Shown here: positions 3,986 through 17,128 of the stretch, piece by piece
Layout: each line of letters opens with the position of its first letter
How positions within the stretch are numbered: position 1 is the first letter of the stretch
Assembly: GCA_903850425.1 (NCBI GenBank)
Contig: CAINLR010000022.1
Span: 1 to 39,282 of the forward strand
Length of the DNA: 39,282 bases
Direction: 5' to 3'
From: an uncultured Verrucomicrobia subdivision 3 bacterium
Lineage (GTDB): Bacteria > Verrucomicrobiota > Verrucomicrobiia > Limisphaerales > UBA11358
Made by a program: the position numbers and the translations under genes
The notes under the pieces: model-generated
The model's database searches: none
Told to the model about the DNA's origin: nothing
The model's input: only the letters and a program-made list of their open reading frames with translations

Positions 3986-6900
3986 TTACCAAGTGACCCA
4001 TGTATTACACGTTCCCTGAGCGGTGCTAGGGTTGCTGGAGCTTGAATAATTGCAGGAGGCAGTTGCCTGACAGTTGAACGAACCAAAGTCACTCAACTGG
4101 AACTGATAACTAATCGGGAACGAACAACCCTCGCCGGCTCTTAACGGCGGACAAGTAAACGATTTGCCACATGCTGTCACCTGACAGGCTGAGAAACAAG
4201 CGGTGCCCGTATTGGTGACGTTGCAGGTGTAGACGGCCGTCTGCCACAAATGTCCGGTGCTTGGTCCGGTCACACATACCACGGGTTTGGGCACAACGCC
4301 CTGATAGGAGAAGTTCACGCAGGTCAAGGCTTGGCAAAGGGCCAAGGTGAATGTCTCAGTATTGTTCGTAGGCACATCGCAACTGACATAGGTGCAATTC
4401 TGTGTGTGCGAAGTGCCGTTTTTGTCCTTCCAGCAATCTTTGTTTGCCGAATTTTTCCAATGCTGATAGCCATCACTGGCGGTCCAGCAATCCACGCCAT
4501 CGCCGCCTTTCCAATGTTGGTATAAATCTCTATCAATCCAGCATTGCTGACCAGTGCTGTTCAGCCAGTGATTGGTGCAGGTGCCCGCAGTTTGGACATG
4601 TCCGGTCGGCTGAATGGTGCTAACGGAGTAGGTTCCTGGCGTCAGATTAAAGAAGCAATAGGAGCCTTGTGCATCAGTTGTGTTCGTCGCGATGGCGACG
4701 TTACTGGCATTCTTGAGAGTGACGGCAACATTCGGCAAGCCTGAATCAAGACCTGGGGTAAGGAAGCCATCCCCGTTACAATCCATGAACACGTAGCCAC
4801 AAACGCTGGCCTTGGAGTTCCCAACAAAAATGTTCTGGGTGCAGCTGTTGCTGTTGCCGCAACCATCCACCGCCAGCCAGGTGCGGGCGATGACATAGGT
4901 TCCAGAACAAGTTCCAGGCGTGATCACATCCTTATAGGTGAGGGTGGGAGTTGAAGAGCACTTGTCAATCACCGTGGCATAGCCGGTCACGGAAGGCGAA
5001 ATGTTGGTTATGGCCGGTGGCACAAGGTGGCCCTTGCACCAGTCGCTGGGTTTGCAGTTCTGGAATGATTGATTCAAGTTGCTGCAAACAATGCTCAGAT
5101 TACTGATGGTGCATCCGTATGCGGAAATGTTGCCACCCCCCAAAGCCGTATGGCAAATGTCGAGAATCTGCCGGATGCTCCGTCCGTCGAGCGAACAGGC
5201 GGGGTCCTTTAGAATCAGATCACCACAACCGGCCGCGAAGCCGGTTACGGACTTGGCATCGCCAAAATCCACATTGAGCTTCAAGCAGAGAGCCTGTCCC
5301 GCGAAGACGCCAGCCTCACAACTGGTGGGGTTGCTATAATTTGTCTTCAAGCAGCCGGGCGTTCCAGTGTAGGGAATGAATTTCTGAATGTTAGTGCAGG
5401 TGGTGAATTTGATGCAATATCCAGTGGCATTGGTAATGCCGCACTGCATATAACCATTGGTATAGATCTTCTTGAAGCAATTCGTCAGGATGCTGGACGC
5501 ATTGGTGCCGTTGCACACAGCGCCATAATCCGCCGGAGTGTAGGTGCAATAGAGAACATAACTATTGCTGATCGTGACGTCCGGCGGGCAGGTGACCACC
5601 GGTGCCGTTGTATCCGCGGTCCAAGTATAGGCCACAGTCTTGGGCAAGGAGACATTGCCGCACGCATCGCAGACGGTGATGGTGAAGGTGCGGGTAACGG
5701 TGCAAACATTGGTCACGTCAAGGTGCGAAACATTGGTAGCCAGCATCGTGCAATTATCGGTCGCAATAACCTGCGCTTTCACGCTTGCGTCAGATGGCAG
5801 CGTGGCGGGGTTGCAGCCTAAATTGCTGTTGACCGGAACACTCGTAATCGTTGGTGCGGTCAGGTCGACCGACCAGGTATAAACAACCGTCGAAGGGGCG
5901 GAGGTGTTGCCGCAGCCATCGCTGGCGGTAATGGTAAATGTGCGAGCCATGGCGCAGGCAGTGCCGCCATCCACATGAGTCACTTTGATGGTCGGAGCAC
6001 CGCAACCATCGGCTGCTGTCACAAGCAACGCTACGCTCGCATCAGTCGGCACATTAACAGGGTTGCAGCCCAAGTAATTATTGGTCGGCACTCGGGTCAA
6101 GACCGGTGCGTTAGTGTCCACGGTCCAAGTGTAAACCACAGTTTTCGGAGTGGCCGTGTTGCCACAAGCGTCCATGGCGGTAATGGTAAACGCGCGGGTT
6201 ACAGTGCAGTTGGTGGTTGCGTCCAGAAACGAAACATTGGTCGAGGTTGCACTGCAAGTGTCCAAAACCGTGACCTGGGCTTTGAGGCTCGCAATGCTCG
6301 GCAAAAGAACAGGGTTACATCCCAGGTCGCAGTTGGTGGCCCCAACCACAATCACCGGCGCGTTCGTGTCTATCGTCCAACTGTAAACCACCGGCTGGGT
6401 GGCAGCATTGCCACAGTTATCGGTGGCCAGGATGATGAATGTGCGCGTGACGGTGCAGTTGGTGGTTGCGTCTTTATGTGAAACGGAGACGGTTGCGTTC
6501 GATGAACTACACATATCCTTGGTTGTGACTTGCGCGGCAATGCTTGCGTCTGTCGGCAAATTGGCGGGGTTACACCCCAAATTCATGTTTGTCGGGGCGT
6601 TCAGGATGTCCGGAGCATTGGTATCGGCAATCCATGAAATGCTCCGCGTGCAAGTGGCTGTATGGCCATAACCGTCGGAAGCCGTGTAGGTCAGAATGCG
6701 GTAATTAAGGCAACCACCTGAGAAATCGGATTTCGTGCACGTAATCGTCACTGGATAGCCGCAACAGGAAGTCGCGAAGACAACATTGGTATCAACCGGG
6801 TTGTGGCAGTCAGGAATGCTCGACGGATCCGGGTTACAACCGAGTGAAAGGTCCGGTGGGCAATTGCTAAACGACACCTGACAGCAGGGCACTTCCAGCA

Positions 6901-7627
6901 GGATGAGTTGAAAGGGTGAATTCTGACCTGCTCCGCTTGCAATATCGAAAATGGCTCCGACACTGCCGCCGCAAGGCACCAACCACGCCGCAGCATTGCT
7001 TGTCGCGTCATTAAGAATGACGGCAACCTCATTGATGTCGACTGGAGGATAAGAATTTGGTTGATCATTCAGCGGATCATTCGGCGCGGGTCCACCCACC
7101 AGCCGGTTGATTGCTGCCTGAACATTCCACCAGTAGTAGTGATAGTCCGGCGGGCTCTTGTGATTCAAGATATAGTTAATCTGGTGCCACGTGGCCACGT
7201 CCACGATCGGCGGTGGCCCTACCGGAGGGGTCCCCAGACGAAAAGGCAGATTCGCGAGTCCGATCGGGTCACACGTAGAAATCAGAGTTCCTGAATAAAC
7301 TGTCAGTCCCGGGACAATAAAATAAGTCGGGTTAAGAATGGTGCTTTCATCAACGCACCAAGCAGGGTAAATTCCGATTGGAATTGGCGAGGTTGGATCC
7401 AAGACATCCACCGTGAATCCTGCTGGCGGAGTCGTAAATCCGTGAACAGGGTTTGGGTCACCATTGGTCACGATCCAGTTGGGATAAGTCGTGATATAGG
7501 CAGTGAGAATATTGTTCGTGGGTAGCGTCAGGCAACATTGTCCAGAAGCGGAGTTGGTCAGGACAAAAATCGCGAGTATGGCCACAATTGTCCACGGGGT
7601 TAGTTTTCTGAGTGTAGTGTTTTTCAT
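3986..7627 (-). CDS. Large secreted Cys-rich repeat protein with SdrD-B-like domain
   Basis: A 1213-residue protein starting at ATG 7627 with a signal peptide (hydrophobic core about 13-25, likely cut after SASG near residue 29). Residues about 89-180 (WCVDEST ... WWNVQAAINRL) resemble the Cys and Gln segments of thioester-type adhesin domains. Residues 335-671 are four Ig/HYR-like repeats of about 84 residues, each starting D-x-x-AP and carrying LGCNP, C-TVTRTFTI and D-CGN motifs. Residues 943-1100 resemble an SdrD-B collagen-binding-like repeat (NGDGFLTPGLDSGLPNVAVTL, then GSYCFFNLTPGTY) interrupted by three 18-residue Trp/Cys repeats. No PEP-CTERM, LPXTG or Por sorting tail is seen; it ends in TWVTW. 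A role as extracellular matrix or adhesin protein is an inference. The gene is flanked by a terminator, has an AT-rich leader and is probably monocistronic. Confidence 0.85.
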   Translation of the reverse strand: MKNTTLRKLTPWTIVAILAIFVLTNSASGQCCLTLPTNNILTAYITTYPNWIVTNGDPNPVHGFTTPPAGFTVDVLDPTSPIPIGIYPAWCVDESTILNPTYFIVPGLTVYSGTLISTCDPIGLANLPFRLGTPPVGPPPIVDVATWHQINYILNHKSPPDYHYYWWNVQAAINRLVGGPAPNDPLNDQPNSYPPVDINEVAVILNDATSNAAAWLVPCGGSVGAIFDIASGAGQNSPFQLILLEVPCCQVSFSNCPPDLSLGCNPDPSSIPDCHNPVDTNVVFATSCCGYPVTITCTKSDFSGGCLNYRILTYTASDGYGHTATCTRSISWIADTNAPDILNAPTNMNLGCNPANLPTDASIAAQVTTKDMCSSSNATVSVSHKDATTNCTVTRTFIILATDNCGNAATQPVVYSWTIDTNAPVIVVGATNCDLGCNPVLLPSIASLKAQVTVLDTCSATSTNVSFLDATTNCTVTRAFTITAMDACGNTATPKTVVYTWTVDTNAPVLTRVPTNNYLGCNPVNVPTDASVALLVTAADGCGAPTIKVTHVDGGTACAMARTFTITASDGCGNTSAPSTVVYTWSVDLTAPTITSVPVNSNLGCNPATLPSDASVKAQVIATDNCTMLATNVSHLDVTNVCTVTRTFTITVCDACGNVSLPKTVAYTWTADTTAPVVTCPPDVTISNSYVLYCTYTPADYGAVCNGTNASSILTNCFKKIYTNGYMQCGITNATGYCIKFTTCTNIQKFIPYTGTPGCLKTNYSNPTSCEAGVFAGQALCLKLNVDFGDAKSVTGFAAGCGDLILKDPACSLDGRSIRQILDICHTALGGGNISAYGCTISNLSIVCSNLNQSFQNCKPSDWCKGHLVPPAITNISPSVTGYATVIDKCSSTPTLTYKDVITPGTCSGTYVIARTWLAVDGCGNSNSCTQNIFVGNSKASVCGYVFMDCNGDGFLTPGLDSGLPNVAVTLKNASNVAIATNTTDAQGSYCFFNLTPGTYSVSTIQPTGHVQTAGTCTNHWLNSTGQQCWIDRDLYQHWKGGDGVDCWTASDGYQHWKNSANKDCWKDKNGTSHTQNCTYVSCDVPTNNTETFTLALCQALTCVNFSYQGVVPKPVVCVTGPSTGHLWQTAVYTCNVTNTGTACFSACQVTACGKSFTCPPLRAGEGCSFPISYQFQLSDFGSFNCQATASCNYSSSSNPSTAQGTCNTWVTW
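4415..4576 (-). repeat. Three 54-bp repeats coding 18-residue W/C-rich units
   Basis: Residues 1018-1071 of the surface protein form three exact-length units: TNHWLNSTGQQCWIDRDL, YQHWKGGDGVDCWTASDG and YQHWKNSANKDCWKDKNG. The shared pattern is x-x-HW-x7-CW, one Cys and two Trp per unit. They are inserted between the two halves of the SdrD-B-like domain. Confidence 0.8.
5615..6625 (-). repeat. Four ~253-bp repeats coding Ig/HYR-like domains
   Basis: Residues 335-671 of the surface protein comprise four units of 84-85 residues starting at DTNAP 335, 420, 504 and DLTAP 588, with a fifth partial start at 672. Each keeps LGCNP, a D-x-C before the middle, a C-TVTRTF-like strand (Ala in one unit) and a D-CGN turn followed by VYTW. 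Units differ at many positions, so this is an old duplication. Confidence 0.8.
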
Positions 7628-7836
7628 AATATTATTTTTGAGGATATTTAGAAAACCATCAATCTATCTCCAACGCTTTCATTGTGAATAGTATGTCGGT
7701 GCCAGACGTCAAGCCTCGCCCATTTTTGTTCACCGATCCTATCAGGTTAATCTGACGAAAATGTTACTCGCTTCACCGCCGGATCGTGTGACTCGAACCT
7801 ATCAACCGCATCAAACAGTTGGGGCAGGCTCCTCAA

Positions 7837-8046
7837 TCATTGCCCGCGCGGGAACTCAGCGTGGCTTCGCCTTGCATAACGGAGCAGCCTCCGGCCCAAG
7901 ACGAGTGCGGTCATTGAAATGGCGACGAACACAACGGAGCTACCGCCGTCAGGAACACTTACTGGAGGTGGGGCGGCTCGGGCGGTAGTCAGCAAACAGG
8001 CAATCCCGGCAATTAAAACTTTTACTGATAGGCTTGATTGCTTCAT
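7837..8046 (-). CDS. Tiny VPDSG-CTERM sorting-signal protein
   Basis: A 69-residue protein starting at ATG 8046, with a clear ribosome binding site (AGGAG seven bases upstream). Residues 1-24 are a signal peptide (KVLIAGIACLLTTARA core). Only about four residues later comes VSVPDGGSSVVFVAI, followed by a hydrophobic helix and Arg-rich RRLLRYARR, the layout of the VPDSG-CTERM sorting signal recognised by exosortases in Verrucomicrobiota. The tail (SHAEFPRGQ) is longer than usual. There is practically no mature domain between the two signals, so the product would be a membrane-spanning micro-protein or processed peptide; a cell-surface role is inferred. It stands alone, upstream of the large surface protein and downstream of a similar PEP-CTERM micro-gene. 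Confidence 0.75.
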   Translation of the reverse strand: MKQSSLSVKVLIAGIACLLTTARAAPPPVSVPDGGSSVVFVAISMTALVLGRRLLRYARRSHAEFPRGQ

Positions 8047-8180
8047 ATGTTTCTCCTGCTCGCTGCCGCTAATCTAAGCACTTGCAAACTGCTAACGTAT
8101 TCGTCAAAGCCAAACCGTTGCCTTACCGTAGCTAGCACGCAGACAATAGTCGAGATAACTGCCAGTAATTGGTGCCAATG

Positions 8181-8215
8181 AAAAAAAACGCGCAAAACCG
8201 GAAGCATTTGCGACG
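8181..8215 (-). terminator. Intrinsic terminator after the PEP-CTERM micro-gene
   Basis: On the minus strand an 8-bp stem (CG-CGCAAA with one bulged base, pairing with TTTGCGCG) is followed directly by eight T's (8188 down to 8181). It lies 36 bases after the micro-gene stop and shows that the two micro-genes are separate transcripts. Confidence 0.75.
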
Positions 8216-8250
8216 CGTTGTGCCATCGTGTAAGCTTGGCCAAAAGCCTT

Positions 8251-8424
8251 TTAGCGGCGAGGTTTCCGCAACAAACGCACAACGCCGATGGCAACTGGCA
8301 CTAGACACAAGGCTCCAGCAAAAATGGTGCTCGGTTCCGGAATCGGTGGATTGCCTGCCAAGGCTGCCATTGGTAATGCGCAAATGGCCACAATGGTCAT
8401 TGTTGTGAAGTTGATTGCTTTCAT
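8251..8424 (-). CDS. Tiny PEP-CTERM sorting-signal protein
   Basis: A 57-residue protein read from ATG 8424 (GGAG six bases upstream) to TAA 8251. Residues 1-23 are a signal peptide (TIVAICALPMAALA, probable cut after ALA). Residues 24-32 are GNPPIPEPS, containing the PEP motif, followed by a hydrophobic helix TIFAGALCLVPVAIGVV and a basic end RLLRKPRR. This is the tripartite PEP-CTERM signal, but only about five residues separate it from the signal-peptide cleavage site. An exosortase would therefore have almost no cargo to sort. It is followed by its own terminator and preceded by a spaced direct repeat that may be regulatory. The gene is easily missed because of its size. Confidence 0.75.
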   Translation of the reverse strand: MKAINFTTMTIVAICALPMAALAGNPPIPEPSTIFAGALCLVPVAIGVVRLLRKPRR

Positions 8425-8513
8425 AGTAGCTCCGTTTAATTTGTTTTTAGGGACTTTGCTCCTCTGCTTTAGTGAGAAAACATTATCGGCTTTGTCATTT
8501 AGAATCTATACCC

Positions 8514-16356: not shown

Positions 16357-17128
16357 TCACATCCAACCTCTCATTTTGTCGTAGGCGATTCCGTGGTATT
16401 CATGCATGACTTCGGTAAACGCCTGCAAATGATCAGGCGTTGGAATCAGGGCAGATAGCTCCCGATACCAAGGAGTGTTTGAGGGTTGCTCGGTTGCATG
16501 GTAATCGGTCGATGCCGGCATGAATTCAACCGCAGGAAATTGCTTTCGGAAGGCACCCAAGGCGCGCGGAATATGCATGGCGGAGGTGACCAACAGAATT
16601 CGCTTTAACTTGTGTTCCTGAAAAATGGTGGGAAGGTTCTGGGCGTGTTCATGGGTGTTCCTGGAGCCGCCTTCTGTTACGATAGCCTCGGGCGGCACGC
16701 CCAACGTCCCGAGGAATTCCGCCATGACGTGTTACGGCCGCGCCGCCGGTAGCGACGCCACCCGTGCAGATCACCAGACCGGCCTTCCCTTGTTTGTAAA
16801 GCAGGGCAGCATCAATTACTCTATCCCCCGCGTCAGCCACCTCAATCATTCGACGGGGTGGAAGTTTCTCCAGCAAGCCACCACTTAGCACTAGGATGGC
16901 ATCCGCAGTGGGGGCCGGTTCCGGCAAAGAGTAACGCCACTCAAGATTTTCAACCAGAAAACCAACCAACCAACCATTGCCGCAAGTCATAAGGGTGAAG
17001 AATGCGGCCCCGAAGAAAAACCAGCTTAACTTCGGTCGCTTCCGGAAGATCGCCGCCGCCGCCATCAGCAACGCGCACAGCGAAGTCGGATTCAGCAATC
17101 TCAGAAAAAGGCTATACAGAATTGACAT
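16357..17128 (-). pseudogene. Frameshifted YdcF/ElyC-like DUF218 membrane protein
   Basis: From ATG 17128 the frame encodes two N-terminal membrane helices (SLCALLMAAAAIF and LSWFFFGAAFFTLMTCG) and the first part of a DUF218 domain (ADAILVLSGG, LYKQGKAGLVICTGG). It then leaves the family. The second part (MAEFLGTLGVPPEAIVTEGG, SRNTHEHAQN, LLVTSAMHIPRA, and the family ending EYHGIAYDKMRGW) continues in another frame from about 16731 to 16357. A single net base change near 16726-16735 would rejoin them into about 255 residues. ElyC/SanA-type DUF218 proteins act in envelope polysaccharide or peptidoglycan lipid-carrier metabolism. It is either a recent pseudogene or a sequencing error; a separate start at ATG 16725 would give only half a domain. 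Confidence 0.75.

Follow-up and report, generated by a model that had tools for sequence, protein, structure and literature searches.

Cargo-less exosortase-tag genes recurrently adjoin genes for predicted thioester-domain proteins in an order of Verrucomicrobia

A sorting signal usually belongs to the very protein that it sorts. In a draft genome of an uncultured Verrucomicrobia bacterium we found exosortase tags encoded as separate micro-genes beside the gene for a tag-less adhesin-like protein. As read from sequence, this two-gene arrangement recurs across the order, and one-ORF versions occur in the same order. The recurrent pairing suggests that a surface protein and its tag can be produced as two distinct proteins.

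Two micro-genes and their predicted thioester-domain neighbour

The window, 39,282 nucleotides long, spans contig C22 in full; the draft genome comprises 197 contigs and 6.9 Mb. Three genes follow one another on its minus strand in order of transcription: B (8251–8424), A (7837–8046) and a 3642-bp gene (3986–7627). Gaps of ~200 bp flank A and B on either side. The initial annotation had described A and B as two cargo-less exosortase-signal genes with good ribosome binding sites, and our analysis agrees: only 5–6 residues separate signal peptide and tail, and AGGAG and GGAG stand just 5' of the ATG codons of A and B, respectively. The 69-aa product of A has a signal peptide ending in TTARA, the mature sequence APPPVS, a VPDGGSS (VPDSG-like) motif, a hydrophobic stretch and the end RRLLRYARR. 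The 57-aa product of B has a signal peptide ending in AALA, mature GNPPI, a PEP-type motif (PEPST), a hydrophobic stretch and RLLRKPRR. The N-terminal signal peptides were recognized by a hydrophobicity rule and by eye, and cleavage sites were set by eye.

Both tails have the layout of motif, helix and basic cluster and score under the curated cut-offs of the family models (A: TIGR03778, 15.5 bits versus 22, and PF18205, 14.8 versus 25; B: PF07589, 13.9 versus 20.7). Unrelated families score the two proteins as weakly (PA3371_fam, 16.4 bits for A; DUF2306, 15.6 bits for B). The homologue at G026:C17 reaches 25 bits against the PF18205 cut-off of 25 and 20.9 against the TIGR03778 cut-off of 22. 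Because their tails fall under the curated cut-offs, annotation would skip A and B. The initial claim that B has its own terminator is weakly supported: a hairpin of –9.8 kcal/mol followed by U8 does lie 3' of B (8176–8222, minus strand), but it is a weak candidate (z –0.66 versus shuffles) that the terminator scan did not flag. In the promoter and terminator scan, signals were no commoner than in shuffled sequences. A comparison of positions 7800–8450 with plasmid records gave no DNA match. Elsewhere in the window (16357–17128), a DUF218 (ElyC-like) gene is seemingly split over two overlapping frames, by a frameshift or an assembly error.

The 3642-bp partner gene encodes a repeat-containing exported protein of 1213 aa that includes an SdrD_B domain and in which no C-terminal sorting tail is visible by eye. 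Predicted fold and motifs identify the N-terminal domain (residues 27–257; 6857–7549, minus strand) as a thioester domain (TED). TEDs are the covalent-adhesion module of the Gram-positive adhesins CpTIE, SfbI and Cpa (PMC4450167, PMC6194298). We modelled the domain with AlphaFold from a 17-sequence alignment (pLDDT 76, pTM 0.80). In a structural comparison, the top ten entries were all thioester domains (Z 8.0–11.4, versus 2.3 for the eleventh), with CpTIE-TED at Z 11.4 (rmsd 3.1, 157 residues aligned). Foldseek ranked TEDs first, but with an E-value of 1.1e-2. The model of a second family member (pLDDT 81) retrieved twelve thioester-domain entries at Z 8.2–11.3 (next entry, Z 2.9), including CpTIE-TED at Z 11.3 (rmsd 3.5, 161 residues aligned).

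Class I TEDs, as PMC6194298 defines them, have a Cys in [YFL]C-phi-zeta on strand C, a Gln in phi-Q-zeta-phi-phi on the last strand and a TQXX-phi-W motif in helix 2. The Cys and both Gln residues are invariant in 17/17 domains and fall at the expected elements of the model. In the window protein, the candidate thioester Cys91 (Cys65 in alignment A4; codon 7355–7357, minus strand) lies on model strand 59–65. Gln170 of the TQXX-phi-W-like motif (Gln144 in A4; 7118–7120, minus strand) lies on helix 140–151, and the candidate thioester Gln240 (Gln214 in A4; 6908–6910, minus strand) just before the last strand, 215–221. Deviations from the motifs are Trp before the Cys and Val for Thr before the motif Gln; in addition, the window protein has Asn in place of the motif Trp. 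The Gln of VQAAIN had been considered as the bond-forming residue and was dropped, since the bond-forming Gln sits in the last strand according to PMC6194298. A thioester bond probably forms in the partner TED. Four N-domains gave no match to PF08341 at E ≤ 10, NCBIfam returned no TED match for N-domains, and a PDB sequence search with a 4-sequence N-domain profile returned nothing at E ≤ 10. Because there is no PF08341 match, the name TED here refers to fold and motifs and does not imply membership of the Pfam family. Within or close to TED proteins, a stretch that contains a Cys (GDL...VRxIL...ALxGG) occurs repeatedly (window 3986–7627; L149; L148 14775–16640).

Recurrence of the pair and one-ORF versions in the order

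With B as query against 59 genomes, the two best other matches were full-length short relatives at G026:C268 (E-value 6.0e-12) and G020:C50 (9.2e-8). With A as query, the second-best other match (E-value 0.0046) was a short gene in G026. All three short genes found in this way adjoin a homologue of the partner gene, which is the sole neighbour family common to the homologous loci. The TED family is present in 4 of 49 genomes of the genus. Order-wide, there are at least 25 matches in at least 21 of 320 genomes at E ≤ 1e-4, lower bounds because the best 8–20 candidates per genome were scored. Eighteen of the 25 matches are strong (≥93 bits; 17 loci in 14 genomes) and seven are weaker (≤51 bits).

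Directly upstream of the TED gene and on the same strand, an intact cargo-less tag gene stands at 13 of the 17 strong loci listed, with 22–348 bp between its stop and the TED start. The paired loci come from 11 of the 14 TED genomes and, by taxonomic labels, from eight families; conservation in relatives, a check proposed in the initial annotation, is thus seen as homologous genes of the same architecture and size. The tag is of VPDSG type at 12 of these loci and of PEP type at one (G020), in the same slot. A fourteenth locus, in G176, has a copy that is frame-broken as judged by eye, and no tag gene was found at G166:C37, G147:C61 and G088:C204. At the first of these three, a single ORF that runs off the contig contains two TED domains (L142 2833–11103). 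A tag gene is missing within 1.6 kb of each of the seven weaker, distant TED-like loci, six of which can be read to a stop and lack a tail as well. A stop is reached in 11 strong TED ORFs, all of them without a terminal sorting tail (eight by rule, three by eye); the other six run off their contigs. The C-termini of the TED proteins vary from locus to locus, and hence no docking domain is obvious. Among 79 other flanking ORFs of at least 90 aa, taken with a simple ORF picker at loci of which several end at contig ends, no family is common to three or more of the 17 loci. Hence, in the stretches examined, the pair stands outside any larger conserved neighbourhood.

The association was also seen from the side of the tag genes. 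A profile search of the 320 genomes placed 11 TED-adjacent genes on top (E ≤ 4.3e-13), eight of which had served to build the profile. A rule-based detector found 12 of the 13 intact tag genes, and the one at G026:C268 was found by the profile; the detector misses the VPDV-type tag of that locus and the broken tag of G176. In the TED-locus stretches it gave no match more than 1 kb from a TED gene, and in 1.01 Mb of shuffled sequence it gave one match. In 542 kb of other stretches it gave 11 matches: eight in stretches that had been chosen because they contain the match, a ninth that is a further copy of these, and two PEP proteins of 104–105 aa that are not cargo-less. Homologues of both A and B are present in the window and at G026:C268. 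In the window, A lies between B and the TED gene, which are 623 bp apart; at G026:C268 the B homologue is on the opposite strand, past the distal end of the TED gene.

The exosortase motif, tail helix and basic end are all conserved among the tag genes. Synonymous differences exceed non-synonymous ones in six homologue pairs (one-sided P-value 0.035 to 1.9e-6), of which we use the direction only, because some synonymous distances have reached saturation and the pairs partly depend on one another. The TED-linked mature peptides have 4–10 aa, 40% proline and no lysine in 15/15 (related sequences, cleavage sites by eye). Nine further cargo-less tag genes have no TED gene nearby (two each at G165:C108, at G266:C106 and in G062, one each in G125, G035 and at G159:C186), plus a tenth, in G319, cut by the contig end. 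We judged TED absence from the neighbours read and from these contigs, several of them short, not being among the order-wide TED matches. One TED-less tag gene is conserved between G062 and G035. The mature part contains lysine in four of eight such orphan genes, a contrast that is a hint at most because the sequences are few and related. A cargo-less VPDSG-type gene conserved in two genomes adjoins a putative undecaprenyl pyrophosphate synthase gene (by eye), with no TED nearby (L196 5972–6199 and L199 455–682). Just 3' of ATP synthase genes (by eye) lie two cargo-less tag genes whose mature parts are basic (L194 5924–6109 and 6532–6735).

TED and tag are also found as one protein. One-ORF signal peptide–TED–tail proteins gave at least 56 profile matches in at least 36 of the 320 genomes. 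A first screen, with too strict a motif, had found none among 66 tailed ORFs; a looser pattern gave nine ORFs, and the five judged TED-like by eye became the profile seeds. At all 30 loci examined among the 56 matches (four of which hold seeds), TED and tail lie in one ORF, with the tail recognized by rule at 28 and by eye at two. The Cys, first Gln and Trp are present in 30/30 and the last Gln is aligned in 19/30. PF08341 is the best Pfam match, sub-threshold, for three of five fused proteins. The proteins are mostly 220–270 aa long, lack a stalk and carry the tag soon after the TED end; their TEDs form a sequence branch other than that of the stalked adhesins. In a class sample of 384 genomes, adhesin-branch TED proteins came from five genomes, all in the order and none outside it, and no fused, one-ORF form of this branch was seen. 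Members of the fused small-protein family, which falls under the Pfam TED cut-off, include L220 6059–6721 and 7119–7760, L222 7032–7853, L216 850–1596, L178 693–1466 and those at L223–L252. L222 (4932–7853, G018:C46) has three adjoining genes on one strand: one for a nearly cargo-less PEP-type protein of 70 aa, one that looks exosortase-like by eye (5276–6871) and one for a fused TED–PEP protein.

Possible roles of the detached tags

The supposition that more than one exosortase type exists proved correct for the window genome. It has six exosortase loci, among them XrtC, the VPDSG-specific type (311.6 bits versus the cut-off of 300), and another locus with the XrtU C-terminal domain above its cut-off. 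We surveyed XrtC in 20 genomes, all of which have some exosortase match to the model at E ≤ 0.001, and counted matches at E ≤ 2.5e-57 alone. Such a strong match was found in 12 of the 14 TED genomes. It was found neither in G067 and G262, both with VPDSG-type tag genes, nor in the control genomes G001, G013 and G034. The window genome alone passed the curated XrtC cut-off.

Our leading, though tentative, reading is that A and B are detached exosortase sorting tags of the adjacent tag-less TED adhesin, which would thus receive its anchor in trans. Sec would export the micro-proteins and the adhesin. The tail would then be cut, in A by XrtC and in B by another exosortase, and the enzyme would join the short peptide to an envelope or exopolysaccharide anchor. 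Thus anchored, the stub would keep the TED adhesin on the cell surface. In the stalked adhesins, where the stalk comes after the TED, the tag may be delivered as a separate protein; in the fused proteins it comes close behind the TED. Several observations count against trans anchoring: the three strong and seven distant loci without a tag gene, the tag genes without a TED, the fused TEDs belonging to another branch, the distance of B from the TED gene, the misplaced B homologue at G026:C268, the two VPDSG-type genomes without strong XrtC and the absence of an obvious docking domain.

The micro-proteins could instead be independent surface or matrix components, signalling peptides or exosortase titrants that are made alongside the adhesin, for example during biofilm growth, without touching it. 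Such co-regulation, which we regard as unlikely but as a serious contender, accommodates the orphan tag genes, the strong TED loci without a tag gene, the gaps around A and B and the possible terminator after B. However, it does not lead one to expect that the upstream same-strand slot is kept at 13/17 loci while no other neighbour family is kept, nor that other proteins of the order combine TED and tag in one chain. It is mainly because TED and exosortase tag co-occur as one protein or as adjacent genes that we prefer a functional link over mere co-expression. Among the roles listed in the initial annotation, which had overlooked the adjacent TED gene, that of an anchor is taken up in our leading reading; a free-standing decoy or titrant would not predict that the same-strand slot upstream of one exported family is so often kept.

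An export or assembly helper is a more doubtful proposition. The uncleaved micro-protein would be a one-helix inner-membrane chaperone that delivers the TED protein either to the exosortase or to the exopolysaccharide machinery, or that protects the thioester in export. Gene order, with the tag gene first and the TED gene second at short distance, and the conserved tail helix and basic end are consistent with this role. A helper would, however, have no need for an exosortase motif, yet the motif is conserved, and two tag classes in the same slot are left unexplained. That A and B are decaying relics of longer exosortase substrates, a refutation foreseen in the initial annotation, or spurious ORFs is highly improbable: small size, sub-cut-off tails and one frame-broken copy would fit, but the 13 loci, from eight families, agree in architecture and size, and this and the synonymous excess indicate genes conserved under purifying selection. 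Overall, we lean towards trans anchoring over both the co-regulated neighbour and the membrane helper.

A bolder version of trans anchoring, which we consider quite improbable, is a two-step covalent assembly. An exosortase would first fix the micro-peptide to the envelope, and the N-terminal amine of the peptide would then attack the adhesin thioester, so that anchor and stalked adhesin are joined in trans. The characterized TEDs of SfbI and FbaB react with a lysine, according to PMC4450167. Because the TED-linked mature peptides lack lysine, the alpha-amine alone would be left, and this absence cuts both ways. If such capture of the peptide by the TED were true, it would amount to two-step covalent surface assembly in a Gram-negative.

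Relation to known systems

Both ingredients, exosortase tags and TED adhesins, are already known; the split arrangement was not met in the literature searched. That search, in which few subscription journals were covered, yielded no account of a split arrangement, of cargo-less exosortase proteins, of tag-only genes beside TED genes or of exosortase tails on TEDs. The recurrent pair and its one-ORF versions make it testable how exosortases and thioester adhesins hold proteins at the Gram-negative surface, and a search rule is gained for tag-only genes missed by annotation. VPEID-CTERM/exosortase E micro-proteins resemble A and B in being short, with little between signal peptide and sorting signal, but they are encoded beside the exosortase, whereas A and B lie beside an adhesin.

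The exosortase/PEP-CTERM (PMC1569441) and XrtC/VPDSG-CTERM (TIGR04151, TIGR03778) systems share with A and B a signal peptide, a C-terminal motif, a hydrophobic helix and a basic end, and XrtC is present in the genome. Ordinary PEP-CTERM and VPDSG-CTERM substrates have a cargo domain between the two signals; A and B have hardly any sequence there, and what is probably their cargo is encoded by another gene. TED proteins, described from Gram-positives in PMC4450167 and PMC6194298, would be placed among probable exosortase cargo in Verrucomicrobia. Like the Gram-positive TED adhesins of those accounts, the partner is an exported, repeat-rich protein whose N-terminal part has the predicted TED fold and the motifs; unlike them, it is found in Verrucomicrobia and is tail-less, its putative sorting signal being a separate gene and of the exosortase kind. 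The fused TED–PEP/VPDSG proteins of the order are like the pair in combining a TED with an exosortase tag, but differ in carrying the tag in cis, in having no stalk and in belonging to another TED branch.
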